Positions 10,047 through 16,481 of a stretch of 64,000 nucleotides of DNA are shown here, piece by piece. The DNA comes from Caldicellulosiruptor hydrothermalis 108 (GTDB lineage Bacteria; Bacillota; Thermoanaerobacteria; Caldicellulosiruptorales; Caldicellulosiruptoraceae): assembly GCF_000166355.1 (NCBI RefSeq), contig NC_014652.1, forward strand, positions 1,065,001-1,129,000. Reading direction: 5' to 3'. The position numbers and the translations under genes were made by a program. Positions within the stretch are counted from its first letter, which is position 1; the number at the start of each line of letters is the position of its first letter. The notes under the pieces are model-generated. The model worked only from the letters and a program-made list of their open reading frames with translations, ran no database searches and was not told where the DNA came from.

Positions 10047-10075
10047 TTGTCAGATGAGAAGTTTTCTGATATACT
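10047..10075 (+). promoter_or_regulatory. candidate sigma-A promoter of the trp operon
   Basis: TTGTCA (10047-10052) and TATACT (10070-10075) are separated by exactly 17 bp; each differs from consensus at one base. A start near 10082 would give a leader of about 100 nt before trpE, beginning just ahead of the first (T/G)AG triplet. Confidence 0.7.
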
Positions 10076-10087
10076 TAAAAATAAGAA

Positions 10088-10176
10088 TAGCTTTAGGCTT
10101 TAGAGAGTTTAGAAAGAGCATATTTTTTAAGCTTGGAAAAGATGAGAAGAGAATAGAAGAGATGAGAGGAGATGAG
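10088..10176 (+). promoter_or_regulatory. candidate TRAP-type RNA-binding site: clustered (G/T)AG triplets in the trp leader
   Basis: (T/G)AG triplets begin at 10088, 10094, 10101, 10105, 10110 and 10116. After a 25-nt gap, seven more begin at 10144, 10149, 10154, 10159, 10164, 10169 and 10174, each separated by exactly 2 nt. The B. subtilis TRAP 11-mer binds eleven (G/U)AG triplets spaced mostly by 2 or 3 nt in the trp leader. The last triplets contain the 5' strand of the antiterminator and the trpE ribosome site (AGGAG, 10167-10171), so a bound protein could both favour termination and block translation. An mtrB homologue is not in this window, so the regulator is inferred. Confidence 0.65.
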
Positions 10177-10232
10177 CTGTAAAATGAAAAAGGTGGCAAA
10201 CGTGCGCCCCGATAGCTCATCGGGGCTTTTTT
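10171..10232 (+). terminator. trp attenuator: mutually exclusive antiterminator and terminator hairpins
   Basis: Terminator: GCCCCGAT (10206-10213) pairs perfectly with ATCGGGGC (10219-10226) around a 5-base loop, followed by TTTTTT. Antiterminator: GATGAGCT (10171-10178) pairs perfectly with AGCTCATC (10214-10221), which uses the terminator loop and part of its 3' arm, so the two cannot coexist. The antiterminator's 5' arm is the last member of the GAG repeat array. The terminator lies after every usable in-frame trpE start codon, hence inside the trpE reading frame. Confidence 0.8.
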
Positions 10233-11557
10233 GTTATCATGATATTGGAACCTATATACCTTTCTTTGAAGAATATTCAAACGATTCAATTGACCTATCA
10301 AATATAGATTTTGATTCAATCGAAGGGGATTTCTTTTTCTTTGAAAATTCCCAGATGGCAGCTTTTTGCATTGATAGGTTTTTGTGCGTTACAGTCTATC
10401 GTGACAAAATTGAGGTTGATTCTGAAGGTACAAAAAAAGTTTTTTATGGCGATGTTCACCGAATGCTTGATAGCATATTGGAAGGTCTAATTCAAAAGAA
10501 TGCTTATATCACCTGTCAGTTTAACTATCATGCGGTAAATCTATTAGAAGACATATATTCTGCTGACAGTCCCTATATAGTTCTAAATGTTTACAGAAAA
10601 AATGTATTTGTTGACAAACTTACAGGCAAGAAAACTCTTTTGGTGAGCAGCAAAGAATTTGAAAAAGCTGCTGTAATAAATTTGAAGAAGTACCAAAGAA
10701 CTTTGTTTGATGTAAAAAGCGATGTGGTCTTTTCAACTCCAAAAGAGTACTTTATCAGCACAGTCAAGCAGGCAAAAGAGGATATCAGAAATGGTGAGAT
10801 TTTTCAGATTGTTCTGTCTCAGATAATATTGGTCAAAAGCAATATCCTAACCAGCCATCTTTTTTACACAATGAAAGAGAGAAATCCTTCAGAGTACAGC
10901 ATTGTGATAAACAATGAAGAAAGCCAAGTGATTTGTTTTTCGCCAGAGACTCTTATAAAGAAAAAAGGAAACACAGTAAAGACATTTCCAATTGCAGGAA
11001 CATACAGGATAAACGAAGGCGATGATATTGCCCAGAAAAAGATAGAGATACTAAAAGACAAAAAAGAGATAAGTGAACATGTCATGCTTGTTGACCTTGC
11101 GCGAAATGACCTTGGCAGGATTTCAAAACCCGGCACTGTAAAAGTAGAAGAATACTTGAGAATAAAAAGGCTTTATAACCTCATTCATATATATTCAGTT
11201 GTTACAGGTGAACTTGAAGAAAAGAGCCTCACAAAAACGATACTATCTGTTTTCCCGGCTGGCACGCTGACCGGCGCGCCAAAGATAAGAGCTATGCAGC
11301 TGATTGAAAAGTACGAAAGGCAGAGAAGAGACCTTTACGGAGGAGCAATCGGATATATTTACAAAGACCAGTTTGACCTTGCCATAGCTATAAGAATGGC
11401 TGTAAAGGACAAAAAAGAAAACATTATCAAGCTTCAAAGCGGTGCGGGGATTGTGAACTTGTCAGTACCCGAGAATGAGTATCAGGAGTGTTTGACCAAG
11501 CTCAGAGCGTTTTTGAGGATAATGGAGGTGGATGAAAATGATATTGTTAATAGATAA
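10184..11557 (+). CDS. trpE: anthranilate synthase component I
   Basis: 457 aa from the ATG at 10184, which has AGGAG twelve bases upstream; an in-frame ATG at 10172 sits too close to that site. It joins chorismate and ammonia to give anthranilate, with TrpG supplying ammonia from glutamine. C-terminal chorismate-binding motifs: TFPIAGTYR (about residues 270-278), LVDLARNDLGRIS and FPAGTLTGAPKIRAMQLI. The amino-terminal family similarity begins near TYIPFFEEY (about residue 24), so the first ~22 codons, which hold the terminator hairpin, are a non-conserved extension. No other ATG, GTG or TTG in frame lies between the hairpin and the conserved part. Its end overlaps trpG by 20 bp. Confidence 0.93.
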   Translation: MKKVANVRPDSSSGLFCYHDIGTYIPFFEEYSNDSIDLSNIDFDSIEGDFFFFENSQMAAFCIDRFLCVTVYRDKIEVDSEGTKKVFYGDVHRMLDSILEGLIQKNAYITCQFNYHAVNLLEDIYSADSPYIVLNVYRKNVFVDKLTGKKTLLVSSKEFEKAAVINLKKYQRTLFDVKSDVVFSTPKEYFISTVKQAKEDIRNGEIFQIVLSQIILVKSNILTSHLFYTMKERNPSEYSIVINNEESQVICFSPETLIKKKGNTVKTFPIAGTYRINEGDDIAQKKIEILKDKKEISEHVMLVDLARNDLGRISKPGTVKVEEYLRIKRLYNLIHIYSVVTGELEEKSLTKTILSVFPAGTLTGAPKIRAMQLIEKYERQRRDLYGGAIGYIYKDQFDLAIAIRMAVKDKKENIIKLQSGAGIVNLSVPENEYQECLTKLRAFLRIMEVDENDIVNR

Positions 11558-12149
11558 CTATGACTCTTTTACATTCAATCTTTACCAGATGATTGCAAGT
11601 AAAACACAGGTTTTGGTGTTCAGAAACGACAAGGTTACAGTGGATACAATAAAGAAGTTGAATCCGGCCGGCATAATAATTTCTCCAGGTCCGGGCAGTC
11701 CAAAAGATGCGGGTGTGAGCAAAGAGGTTGTAAATACATTTGCGGGTAGTATTCCAATCTTGGGTGTGTGTCTTGGTCATCAGGTGATTGGAGAGTGTTT
11801 CGGGGCACGAGTAATTCATGCAAAAATGATTTACCATGGAATGAGATCGAGGGTTGACCTGCTTGAAAGCGGTAAAAGAAGCAGACTTTTTAAAGGTGTG
11901 CCAGAGAGATTTTTTGCAGGAAGGTATCATTCACTTGTGGTTGAGAAATCTGCATCTTTGAAACAGCTTGAAATAGCTGCTGTGAGTGAAGATGATGAGG
12001 TCATGTCCCTGGTAAACGATAGCTTGAGAGTCTATGGGATTCAATTTCATCCTGAGTCAATCCTGACTCCTGATGGTGAGACAATTATTCAAAACTTTTT
12101 AGAAATATGCTATGATGGGGTGGGAAAAGATGCTCATCGATGTGCTTGA
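11538..12149 (+). CDS. trpG: anthranilate synthase component II (glutamine amidotransferase)
   Basis: 203 aa from the ATG at 11538, with GGAGG nine bases upstream; an ATG six bases earlier is too close to that site. A class I glutamine amidotransferase releasing ammonia for TrpE. The nucleophile Cys78 is in GVCLGHQ, and the His171 and Glu173 of the triad are in [16 protein letters not shown] (about 49-59) forms the oxyanion region. It overlaps trpE at its start and trpD at its end. No folate genes are nearby, so any PabA role is unsupported. Confidence 0.95.
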
Positions 12150-13140
12150 GCTTGTGACAAACAAAAAGGATTTGGAATATGACCAGGTAAAAAATCTTCT
12201 TGACGACATCTTGGAAGGAGAACTTGATGAGATAAAGTTTGGTGCATTTTTGGCAGCACTAAAAACGAAGGGTGAAACAGAAAAAGAGATTTCGGCATTT
12301 GTTGATGCCTTTTATGACAAGGCAAGAAAACTTAACTTTGACCATCCAGCTACAATTGATACATGTGGAACAGGTGGCGATGGAAAAGGCACGTTTAACA
12401 TCTCAACAGCCGCGGCTATTGTTCTTAGCTGTTTTGACGTAAAAGTAGCAAAACATGGTAACAGAAGTATTACAAGCAATTCAGGATCAGCCGACATCTT
12501 AGAAAAACTTGGTATAGATATCCAGCCTGGGGAAGATAAAGTTTTGAAAGGGCTTGAGAAACTGAACTTTGCATTTTTGTTTGCGCCACTGTATCATCCT
12601 GCCATGAAAAAGGTTGCAAATTTAAGAAGATCACTTGGTATCAGAACAGTTTTTAACATCTTAGGTCCGCTTTTGAACCCTGTACCACTGAAATATCAAG
12701 TGGTTGGGACATTTAGCTTTGATGCGCAGGAGAAAGTGGCTTCTGTGCTAAGAGGCAAGAGAAAAAAAGCCGCTGTCATACATAGCCTTGACGGACTTGA
12801 CGAGATTTCTGTTTCTAAAAAGACAAGGGTGCTTGAGATACAAGACAAGAATATCAAAGAATATTATATTGACTCAAAAGACTATGGAATTGAATTTGAT
12901 ACAAGCTCAATTAGAGGCTTTTCGCCTGAAGAAAATGCAAGGATTTTGATAAGTGTGCTTGAGGGAGAAAAGTCGCCTTATTTTTGGGCTGTTGTTTTAA
13001 ATTGTGGATTTGCACTTTACATTTGTGAGGTTGCAAAAGATGTTGAAGAAGGAATTAAGCTTTCCTCAAAAGCAATCGAGAGCAAAGAAGCTTATTTAAA
13101 GCTCAAAGAGTTGCAGCAGTTTTATAAATCGGGAGTGTAA
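12130..13140 (+). CDS. trpD: anthranilate phosphoribosyltransferase
   Basis: 336 aa from the ATG at 12130, with GGGGTGGG six bases upstream; an in-frame ATG at 12112 would add six residues. It transfers the phosphoribosyl group of PRPP to anthranilate. The glycine-rich PRPP loop is in [17 protein letters not shown] (about residues 76-92), followed by [18 protein letters not shown], the family signature for the anthranilate and PRPP sites. The N-terminal helical domain is of normal size. It overlaps trpG by 20 bp, so the two are translationally coupled. Confidence 0.95.
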
Positions 13141-13146
13141 TTGAAA

Positions 13147-13929
13147 ATGAGTGTGCTTGAGCGTATTTTAAGTTATAAAAAGGAAGAGGTTGAAAAGTGC
13201 AAAAATCTCATACCTGTTGAGAAAATGAAGAAACTTGCAGTTGAGAAGATTAAAGGTGGCTATTTAGAAAACAAGTTCAAAAGAATATTCAAAAAAGATA
13301 AATTCTGTATAATTGGTGAAATAAAACGGGCATCACCTTCGGAGGGCGTAATATCAGAGGATGCCAATGCAAAAGCAATAGCAAAGATGTACGAAGATTT
13401 GGGATTTTTTGCTATATCAGTTTTGACAGAAAGATTTTTTTTCAAGGGTTCGGAGCAAGATTTGATGGAAGTAAAAAAAGAGGTATCTCTGCCCGTGCTA
13501 AGAAAAGACTTTATCATTGATATCTGGCAGCTTTACCAGACAAAGATGATAGGCGCAGATGCAGCTTTGCTTATCACAAAAGCTTTGTCAGAAAAACAGC
13601 TTGCAATATTCATCAAAATTTTAGAAATTCTTGACATTGTCCCGCTTGTTGAGGTTGAAAATGAGTATGAAATTGAAAAAGCTTTGAAGTGTGGTGCAAA
13701 ACTCATAGGAATCAACAATAGAAACCTGGATGATTTGTCCATCGACATAACAAAAACAGAAAGGCTTTTGAAGTATATTCCAAAAGAAGTTGCTGTGATA
13801 AGCGAAAGTGGAATTAAGACAAAAGAGGATTTTGACTATATTCTCTCGCTCGGTGTTGATGGATGTTTGATAGGGACATCTTTTATGAAATCGCAAAATC
13901 CGCTTGAAATAATTGGTGATAGGATATGA
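13147..13929 (+). CDS. trpC: indole-3-glycerol phosphate synthase
   Basis: 260 aa from the ATG at 13147. A TTG at 13141 is an equally close alternative adding two residues; GGGAG lies at 13131-13135. A TIM-barrel enzyme that closes the indole ring. Motifs: the N-terminal KKEEVEKCK helix; IGEIKRASPSEG carrying the catalytic Glu and Lys; LTERFFFKGSEQDL; LRKDFIID carrying the catalytic Lys; INNRNLDDL; and ISESGIKT with the Glu. It is not fused to TrpF. It follows trpD with no gap and overlaps trpF by 4 bp. Confidence 0.95.
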   Translation: MSVLERILSYKKEEVEKCKNLIPVEKMKKLAVEKIKGGYLENKFKRIFKKDKFCIIGEIKRASPSEGVISEDANAKAIAKMYEDLGFFAISVLTERFFFKGSEQDLMEVKKEVSLPVLRKDFIIDIWQLYQTKMIGADAALLITKALSEKQLAIFIKILEILDIVPLVEVENEYEIEKALKCGAKLIGINNRNLDDLSIDITKTERLLKYIPKEVAVISESGIKTKEDFDYILSLGVDGCLIGTSFMKSQNPLEIIGDRI

Positions 13930-14540
13930 TAGTAAAGTTTTGCGGGCTAAAGAGGCTTTTTGATGTTGAGATGTGCAATAAACTTCAGCCTGATATGATA
14001 GGCTTAATATTTGCTCAAAGTTCGAGAAAGGTTGAAAAAGACCTTGCAAAAGATATGGTTTTGGCTAAAAGTCCCTCAATAAAATCAGTGGGAGTTTTTA
14101 AAGACCAGAACATATCAGAGGTTATAGAAATAGCAACACAGCTTCAACTTGACTTTGTGCAGCTGCACGGGAAGGAAGATTATGAGTATATAAAACATTT
14201 GAAAGATCTTGGATTTAGGGTTATAAAGGCTATTGAAGTTAAAAGACAAGAAGATATAAAAAGAGCTAAACGCTATGTAGAAATAGCCGACTTTGTGCTT
14301 CTTGACAGGCCCAAAGGCAGTAGTTTGGATATCACAGAGGTTGCAAAACTTGCTGACTTTGATTATATCATTGCAGGTGGAATAACACCTGAAAATATAG
14401 ATAAATACTTAAATCTAAATCCAATTGGGATTGACATCAGCTCAGGAATTGAGACAAATGGTTTTAAAGATTTTATAAAGATGAAAAAGATTATTGAAAA
14501 GGTAAATAAATACAAGGTTGGTGAAACAAAAAATGGATAG
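13926..14540 (+). CDS. trpF: phosphoribosylanthranilate isomerase
   Basis: 204 aa TIM barrel performing the Amadori rearrangement before TrpC. The catalytic cysteine is in VKFCGLKR (residue 6 region). The catalytic Asp and phosphate-binding segments appear in [11 protein letters not shown] and [14 protein letters not shown], and the C-terminal [15 protein letters not shown] matches the usual VDVSSGVE motif. It overlaps trpC by 4 bp and trpB by 8 bp. Confidence 0.94.
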
Positions 14541-15714
14541 GTATTTTGGAAGATTTGGTGGGATGTATGCACCAGAAACTCTTATGCCAGCTCTTTTAGA
14601 GATAGAAGAAGAGTTTTGCAAGCTTGTGAAAGATGAAAATTTTCTCTCTGAATATGAGTACTATCTCAAAAACTATGTTGGAAGACCATCGCCACTTTAC
14701 TTTGCCAAAAACTTGAGCAATCATCTTGGGGTTAAAATATATCTCAAAAGAGAAGACCTAAACCACACCGGTGCACACAAGATAAACAACTGCATTGGCC
14801 AGGCACTTTTGGCAAAGCATATGGGCAAAAAAAGACTTATTGCCGAGACAGGAGCAGGTCAACACGGTGTTGCAACATCTACAGTTGCTGCTCTTTTTGG
14901 GATGGAATGCGAGATATTTATGGGTGAAGAAGATGCAAAAAGGCAGTTTCATAACGTGCAGAGGATGAAAATGCTTGGCAGCAAGGTAAGAGTAGTTAAC
15001 AAGGGAAGCAAGACCTTGAAAGACGCAATAAACGAGGCAATGCGTGACTGGAGCGAGACGTTTGAGTATACCTTTTATCTTTTTGGTACAGCTGCAGGAC
15101 CTCATCCGTTCCCAACAATTGTAAAATACTTTCAAAGTGTGATTGGGAAAGAGACAAAAGATCAGATAAAAAGGCTTGAAGGAAGACTTCCAGACTATAT
15201 CTTTGCGTGTGTTGGTGGTGGTTCTAACGCAATTGGTATCTTCTCAGCGTTTTTGGAAGATCATGAAGTAAAGCTTATTGGCGTTGAGGGTGCAGGAGAG
15301 GGAATACATACAGGCAAAACGGCTGCGACGCTATGCAGCGGGTCTGTTGGAATCTTGCACGGTGCTAAAACGTATATTTTACAGGATGAGGAAGGGCAAA
15401 TTCAAAACACACATTCAATCTCAGCAGGGCTTGACTACCCGGGTGTTGGACCTGAACATGCATATTTGAAAGAGACAGGAAGGGTTGAGTATGTAGGGGC
15501 TACTGACAAAGAAGCTGTGGATGCATTTTTGCTGCTCACAAGGCTTGAAGGGATAATTCCAGCGCTGGAGTCGAGCCATGCCCTTGCAGAGGTTATTAAA
15601 AGGGCAAAGATGGGACTGTTCAAAACCAGTGACATTGTGGTTGTGAACCTTTCTGGAAGAGGTGATAAGGATATAAATACAGTACTTGAGCTTTGGAAGG
15701 ATGATGAGCTATGA
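14533..15714 (+). CDS. trpB: tryptophan synthase beta chain
   Basis: 393 aa from the ATG at 14533 ([10 protein letters not shown]); upstream TTG and GTG codons in frame have no better ribosome site. A PLP enzyme condensing indole and serine. The PLP lysine is in [10 protein letters not shown] (about residue 84), [10 protein letters not shown] is the substrate loop, GGGSNAIG binds the PLP phosphate, and [15 protein letters not shown] is the TrpB1-type signature. The length and the N-terminal [13 protein letters not shown] mark it as TrpB1, which pairs with TrpA. Confidence 0.97.
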
Positions 15715-16481
15715 ATTTAATAGATGAAAGATTTGAAAAGCTAAAAAAAGAGGGCAAAAAAGCCTTCATAGGCTATGTTACGTTTGGATATCCCTCTTTT
15801 GAAGAGACACTTGGGTTTATAAAGCTTGTATATTCATATGTAGACATTTTAGAGATTGGTTTTCCTTTTTCTGACCCTATTGCAGACGGTGAAATTATTC
15901 AAAAAGCATCAAGGAAGGCTCTCAGTGAAGGTGTTAAATTGAGCCACCTTTTTGAAAGCATTGAAAAGTTTAAAAAAGATAAGCCGGTTGTGCTAATGCT
16001 GTATGCAAACACAGTTTACAAAAGGGGAATTGATAGGTTTTTTGAAAGTAGCAAAGCTTGCGGTGTGGATGGCGTGATAATCCCAGATGTTTCGTTTGAA
16101 GAGAGCTTTGAGTTCAAAGAAGTAGCTGAAAAGTTTGGTATTGTCTATATTGACCTTGTATCAATATCTTCTCTTGAGAGAGCCAAGATGATAGGTAGGC
16201 AGAGCCGTGGTTTTTTGTATTGTGTTTCAAGAAAAGGTGTGACAGGTTTCAAAGGGCAGATTGATGATAGGATTTTTACTTTTCTAAAAGAACTAAAAAC
16301 CGTTACCTCAACACCTTTGGCAGTTGGATTTGGTATAAAGAGTAAAGAAGATGTGCAAAAGTTCAAAGACCTTGCTGATGGTATTGTTATTGGAAGCGCT
16401 ATAATCACAAAGATAGATGAAGGAAAAGACAAACTTGAGGATTTTTTGAAAGAAATCTCAGAAAGTCTAAAAGACAAATAA
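15711..16481 (+). CDS. trpA: tryptophan synthase alpha chain
   Basis: 256-aa TIM barrel that splits indole-3-glycerol phosphate and channels indole to TrpB. The catalytic Glu is in [14 protein letters not shown] (about residues 46-59), where the catalytic Asp also lies. [14 protein letters not shown] and [11 protein letters not shown] form the phosphate-binding region. It overlaps trpB by 4 bp and ends the operon, followed five bases later by a strong terminator. Confidence 0.95.

Follow-up and report, generated by a model that had tools for sequence, protein, structure and literature searches.

The trp operon of Caldicellulosiruptor hydrothermalis 108 very probably carries a tryptophan-responsive TRAP attenuator, in which a single TRAP site would do two jobs at the head of trpEGDCFBA, one in transcription termination and one in translation. 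The operon lies in a stretch of 64,000 nucleotides (contig NC_014652.1, positions 1,065,001 to 1,129,000 of the forward strand), called here the window, and coordinates count from its first letter unless a contig is named. The TRAP gene, the triplet array, both pairing arms, the terminator, the position of the trpE start and their conservation can be read directly from the DNA. The predicted stop signal is written in the enzyme's own codons, and one 12-nt segment is common to the Shine-Dalgarno, the antiterminator 5' arm and the last triplets.

The trp leader and its TRAP site

The features of the leader and operon are as follows.
10047..10075 (+), trp promoter: TTGTCA, 17-nt spacer, TATACT, with an extended TG before the -10
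10088..10118 (+), irregular upstream (T/G)AG triplets, whose count and spacing differ among species
10144..10176 (+), predicted core of the TRAP site: an array of seven (G/T)AG with an exact period of 5 nt
10167..10171 (+), trpE Shine-Dalgarno AGGAG, formed by the last array triplets
10171..10178 (+), antiterminator 5' arm GATGAGCT, including the last GAG
10184..11557 (+), trpE: 457 codons from ATG 10184 plus stop
10184-16481 (+), trp operon trpE-G-D-C-F-B-A; trpE and trpG are backed by Pfam, and the others we take to be trpD, trpC, trpF, trpB and trpA
10206..10213 (+), terminator 5' arm GCCCCGAT, spanning trpE codon 8 (from its second base) through the end of codon 10
10214..10221 (+), antiterminator 3' arm AGCTCATC, equal to the terminator loop plus the first 3 nt of the terminator 3' arm
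10219..10232 (+), terminator 3' arm ATCGGGGC and T6, the predicted transcript end, within trpE codons

An earlier note on this DNA had proposed a promoter ahead of trpE, triplets of which seven stand at an exact 5-nt period, and a trpE ribosome site inside the triplet array, and all three are borne out. TATACT is kept upstream of the trp leader in 12/12 genomes of the genus. Promoter-like sites number four in the 800-nt stretch around the trp promoter against a mean of 2.7 in shuffles, so the promoter scan by itself proves little. Transcription would start near 10082-10083, and the leader is about 101 nt long.

A usual TRAP site has about 11 (G/U)AG triplets with spacers of 2-3 nt. Between the expected transcription start (~10083) and ATG 10184 there are 15 (G/T)AG triplets. 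Among 200,000 mononucleotide shuffles of the leader, a chain of seven was reached by none and a chain of six by one, and the exact pattern (KAGNN)x4-KAG occurs at the trp leader as its sole place in the 2.77-Mb genome (reversed control, 0). With strict spacers of 2-3 nt, the longest exact chain is 4-10 triplets across the 12 genus genomes, and 7 here, which is short of the usual number and counts against our main reading; the chains lengthen if irregular spacing or AAG/CAG is admitted. The array is kept in all 12, although the exact 5-nt period, the conservation of which had been put forward as a check, is interrupted in some species; the 25-nt gap that splits the triplets (10119-10143) is likewise present here but not conserved, with 10 unbroken triplets in G002. 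The upstream triplets vary in number and spacing among species and their role is therefore uncertain. A genus-wide search for seven triplets with at most 2 mismatches recovered the leader in 10/12 genomes (G009 and G010 were missed), and its reversed control also gave matches in 10/12. A second triplet-like place (G000:C1:922073-922105, 2 mismatches, TAGAATAGAAGAAAGTAGGGTAGCGGAGAGTGG) was seen in near-identical form in 8/12 genus genomes. TRAP-controlled trp attenuators have a 5' stem-loop that contacts TRAP; the part of the leader where such a stem-loop was looked for, 10083-10143, shows no folding beyond that of shuffled sequence (z -0.19).

The Shine-Dalgarno AGGAG stands 12 nt before ATG 10184, a spacing that is fixed in 12/12 genus genomes and that is long, which we count against our main reading. 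The search of the genome for mtrB that the earlier note had advised found a TRAP homologue at G000:C1:1493116-1493319 (E 4e-38, above cut-off), next to what is presumably a dnaE-like gene, with a pfkA-like gene presumably lying beyond a small frame. Among solved TRAPs the best match to the protein has E 4.2e-51, and the RNA-binding residues of TRAP, K...K-R, are intact, as K...KVR, in 12/12 genus genomes. The absence of TRAP combined with loss of the GAG period in close relatives, which the earlier note had named as fatal to the TRAP reading, is the opposite of what was found, as both TRAP and the array occur in all 12 genomes. No convincing anti-TRAP was found in these genomes with a query of 53 residues run without a positive control (best E 0.89, in 1/12). 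Anti-TRAP under a tRNA-Trp T-box belongs to the B. subtilis group only. A search for the T-box (RF00230) gave 0 matches in the genome and none in the window, while 5/14 control genomes matched, 2 of them above cut-off; T-box control of trp was rejected because the genome holds none.

At the end of the array and beyond it are two hairpins that share bases, exactly as the earlier note had drawn them. The antiterminator pairs 10171-10178 with 10214-10221 in 8 exact base pairs, its 5' arm containing the last GAG, and the terminator is GCCCCGAT-AGCTC-ATCGGGGC (10206-10226), an exact 8-bp stem followed by T6 (10227-10232). By sequence and predicted folds the two are mutually exclusive, with the array overlapping the antiterminator. 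Terminator-like sites number 2 (overlapping) against a shuffle mean of 0.3, and the fold z-scores against shuffles are -3.87 for the terminator (10196-10232) and -3.29 for the antiterminator (10165-10221), but just -1.4 to -1.9 for longer segments holding both. All 12 genus genomes retain the triplet array and both hairpins, and in each of them the terminator sits within trpE codons; one species (G009) has lost one terminator pair. The earlier note had asked for covariation in both hairpins; both antiterminator arms are invariant across the 12 genomes, and hence there is no covariation in the antiterminator.

As for the protein itself, the N-terminal domain of TrpE is unmatched in Pfam, where Chorismate_bind alone matches (window 10184-11557), and the usual LLES stretch of TrpE aligns with a segment bearing DFDS/FDSI. 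Feedback inhibition of the enzyme by tryptophan may differ.

TRAP arrays in other lineages

In a sample of 398 genomes of the phylum, TRAP was found in 200, and the exact seven-triplet array in 70, the reversed control being equally frequent in some. Outside the genus we read 62 array loci, a subset of the array places made up of 30 from the search output and 32 chosen by hand, and assigned them to classes by eye. A TrpE match accompanies 32 of the 62. The terminator is followed by a plausible start codon in 21 of these 32, including L104, whose frame in addition runs on through the terminator without a stop; it lies in the trpE frame in four (family f18); in five (family f42) there are two arrays, and a gene other than trpE comes first; one is without a terminator found, and one has TrpE upstream of the array. 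Among 30 loci read in other genomes, short frames from GAGATGAG run through terminators, mostly in a different frame, and we make no claim for them as leader peptides.

A search of family f18 gave a TrpE match in 35/54 genomes, and the first 20 loci (L133-L152) were read, L153-L162 being left out. The terminator is in frame in 12/20, from 9 genera; one further locus ends at a contig end inside the terminator, and seven are without an in-frame terminator, among them L152, which has a broken frame and an unreadable start. The first ATG runs into a triplet (ATGAG) in all 12 in-frame cases. When the 398 phylum genomes were searched by pattern, 29 matched, and the 30 loci read yielded one more case, G183 (L243, family f31), in which the terminator is again in the trpE frame and the ATG overlaps a triplet. 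TRAP is present in all 8 of the 13 f18/f31 in-frame genomes that lie in the phylum sample. The terminator-coding window of f18 ranks first of 509 in synonymous conservation (0.863 vs 0.438), computed on 10 of the 12 sequences, one near-duplicate and one unparsed sequence being left out. The placing of the terminator in trpE codons, which the earlier note had called unusual, is unlike B. subtilis, but it is not unique to the genus, since f18 (12 cases) and f31 (one) share it.

With the 3' arm omitted, 12/13 of the f18/f31 leaders pair all or part of ATGAG with the terminator 5' arm or loop, while in the thirteenth, L140, pairing begins only at the GC after ATGAG; L133 and L134 are identical in the leader. 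The fold scores z <= -2.3 in 8/13 and is weak in five (-0.3 to -1.7), and with the 3' arm included the best predicted fold is the terminator in 8/13 and the antiterminator in five. The pairings vary by genus: AGATGAGCAGGT pairs with ACCAGCACATTT in one case (two mismatches), GAGCCGG with TCGGTTC in another, and the use of different bases in different genera points, by inspection, to selection on the pairing. Recurrence elsewhere with different bases suggests selection for merging both controls.

Arrays were also seen in other settings. In two f18 genomes (L259 in G145, L260 in G026) the array, ATG and terminator head a frame of ~96 codons, with no trpE there; the gene that follows is presumably trpD-like, and a TrpE match lies ~7 kb downstream in a frame of 734 or 749 codons, as though loss or replacement of the head trpE had spared its regulated first codons. 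In L105-L109 (f42), array 1 is followed by a terminator and array 2 covers the ATG of a gene that begins ~MSQPAKELYPLAG, upstream of trpE; mtrB stands just upstream of array 1 in L105, L107 and L109. Arrays cover, or stand immediately ahead of, the start of frames of 172-181 residues at L110, L111, L114, L091 and L092, which we take to resemble tryptophan transporters; at L121 and L122 an array covers the start of a frame of 453 residues, presumably TrpB. At L116 (G191), read by eye, a short frame (GAGatGAGtcgGAG) has its ATG in the array and a terminator-like hairpin in its codons, and precedes a lipoprotein-like gene.

The proposed switch and alternative readings

We infer TRAP binding, termination, a tryptophan response and the blocking of ribosomes as follows. 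When tryptophan is low, the RNA would be free of TRAP, GATGAGCT would pair with AGCTCATC and the terminator would stay open, so that RNA polymerase reads through and ribosomes load at AGGAG/ATG 10184. When tryptophan is high, the TRAP ring would wrap the triplets, including the antiterminator 5' arm and the Shine-Dalgarno; with the antiterminator blocked, the terminator would form and transcription would stop ~16 codons into trpE. Because the Shine-Dalgarno, the antiterminator arm and the last triplets overlap, one ring should both permit termination and block translation. The same ring would bar ribosomes from the stop-less terminated RNA and from read-through RNA, and a hidden ribosome site would spare the cell from translating terminated RNA without a stop codon.

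Translation itself could play a larger part. There is some chance, though not a large one, that attenuation is coupled to the ribosome, as the earlier note had suggested: in the absence of TRAP a ribosome would load on trpE as soon as its site emerges, trail the polymerase into codons 3-8 and hold the terminator 5' arm single-stranded, TRAP would mainly block loading, and untranslated RNA would terminate by default. The terminator does lie within translated codons, and the Shine-Dalgarno and ATG stand upstream of it at a fixed distance in 12/12 genus genomes. The predicted energies also leave room for a ribosome melting the hairpin, and they count against our main reading. At 37 C the antiterminator is favoured in 9/12 genus leaders, but at 70 C, near which the genus presumably grows, the terminator (about -6 to -7 kcal/mol) is favoured in 8/12 and the antiterminator by <=0.4 kcal/mol in the other four, its helix alone being worth just -1.2 kcal/mol in 10/12 leaders and -2.1 and -2.3 in the other two. 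The switch could therefore need co-transcriptional folding, a pause, or a ribosome. Against such coupling, the genus shows no variation in the antiterminator arms or in the CT that follows the last GAG, a CT for which TRAP should have no need; f18 and G183 make a comparable pairing with other bases; and by our reckoning loading would be required within ~25-50 nt of transcription, and hence a pause. A translation-gated TRAP attenuator in which the ribosome melts the terminator when tryptophan is scarce, and which arose independently at least twice, is accordingly offered as a tentative proposal, the simpler reading being that TRAP covers the ribosome site directly. The leader is a natural test case for whether translation takes part in TRAP attenuation.

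TRAP could instead act solely as a translational repressor, the hairpin and T-run being a weak or accidental terminator. The arrays over gene starts ahead of transporter-like genes (L091, L092, L110, L111, L114) would suit this, yet it is unlikely, as the hairpin and T-run are the most synonymous-conserved part of trpE, the hairpin has a z-score of -3.87, and it turns up again in other lineages, built from different bases. The top window of 447 in synonymous conservation is codons 8-19 (0.962 vs 0.544 overall, from 37 distant pairs of genus trpE). A mere 5'-end effect is disfavoured by the control windows at the 5' end of trpG, which reach just 0.47-0.67. The 5' windows of trpD (0.74-0.95) and the last codons of trpG (0.82) are also high, and these two ends overlap each other, in keeping with high synonymous conservation where a second constraint acts.

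The case in which trpE truly starts past 10232 at a non-canonical codon, behind an ordinary leader, turns on the reading frame and is a shade less likely again. The canonical in-frame starts ahead of the terminator are ATG 10172, ATG 10184, GTG 10193 and GTG 10202. The earlier note's claim that all usable in-frame starts precede the terminator holds, for trpE codons 17-45 are free of ATG, GTG and TTG in 12/12 genus genomes, which places the terminator inside trpE; equally, the later start that would have made this an ordinary leader did not turn up. The first canonical starts past the terminator fall at codon 46 to 92, with none common to all 12, and of codons 17-75 only three (41, 46 and 58) are start-like or near-cognate throughout the 12. 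No Shine-Dalgarno was seen by eye past the terminator in this leader, the frame runs through the hairpin without an indel, and the AGGAG-ATG length is fixed in 12/12. Translation would thus begin before the terminator, unless at a codon of non-canonical type. The best candidate start is ATG 10184, with an in-frame stop 21 nt ahead of it in 11/12 genus genomes and 30 nt in one, and from a start upstream of the terminator the predicted N-terminal peptide is MKKVANVRPDSSSGLF; in-frame ATG 10172 is less likely, and GTG 10202 was ruled out, since one relative has GTC there (and two have ATG). In favour of a downstream start, AlphaFold gives TrpE residues 1-41 a pLDDT below 50, so that these N-terminal residues lack fold support, although the fold supports the terminator-coded residues neither way; a 28-row TrpE alignment is ambiguous at the N-terminus. 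Past the terminator there is, unlike in the genus, a TTG in most of the 12 f18 genomes and an ATG in some, with no Shine-Dalgarno seen before them, so a downstream start is less firmly excluded in f18 than in the genus; G183 has no canonical start from codon 13 to codon 100. A parallel for a downstream start is the S. meliloti metA SAM-II riboswitch, in which, in the extract of PMC9373788, the terminator follows an in-frame AUG1 and translation proceeds from AUG2.

That the likeness to a TRAP leader arose by chance, with control by a T-box, ribosome stalling or other means, is scarcely credible: no point in its favour was found, the genome has TRAP and no T-box, and the unreached seven-triplet chain in 200,000 shuffles, the unique array and the hairpin z-scores mean that chance is no explanation.

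Comparison with known systems

Among the open-access titles and abstract openings searched, this arrangement was not found described. Its closest relative is the B. subtilis trpEDCFBA operon, which shares TRAP, a (G/U)AG array overlapping the antiterminator, and an antiterminator/terminator switch ahead of a trp operon, and where the terminator, in the extract of PMC3913778, occupies +108 to +133 of a 203-nt leader. There the terminator precedes trpE, a trait that is usual and not logically required; here it lies in trpE codons behind a leader of half that length, and anti-TRAP and the T-box were not found. Repression of trpE translation in B. subtilis works by a hairpin in which the Shine-Dalgarno is hidden (PMC12288461, in extract), whereas here the Shine-Dalgarno is part of the array itself.

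TRAP also represses several B. subtilis genes by covering the Shine-Dalgarno, and the TRAP sites of trpG, trpP and ycbK overlap it as the present array does (extract of PMC13170310). The metA leader of S. meliloti likewise has a terminator between an in-frame AUG1 and the gene body and a controlled Shine-Dalgarno, but is a riboswitch with AUG2 past the terminator (PMC9373788, in extract). In the genus studied here no such AUG2 is conserved. In the E. coli pyrBI attenuator, translation across the terminator decides read-through; unlike here, it is a leader peptide that is translated, not the structural gene, and no RNA-binding protein is involved. The f42 two-array leaders also appear to place both transcription and translation under TRAP arrays, but with separate arrays for the terminator and for the ATG of the first gene, where here one array would do both. 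We know of no terminator switch on the same site at trpG, trpP or ycbK. The trp leader of C. hydrothermalis looks like the B. subtilis TRAP attenuator joined with TRAP repression of a ribosome site, a known switch compacted until TRAP site, ribosome site and antiterminator arm are one segment.
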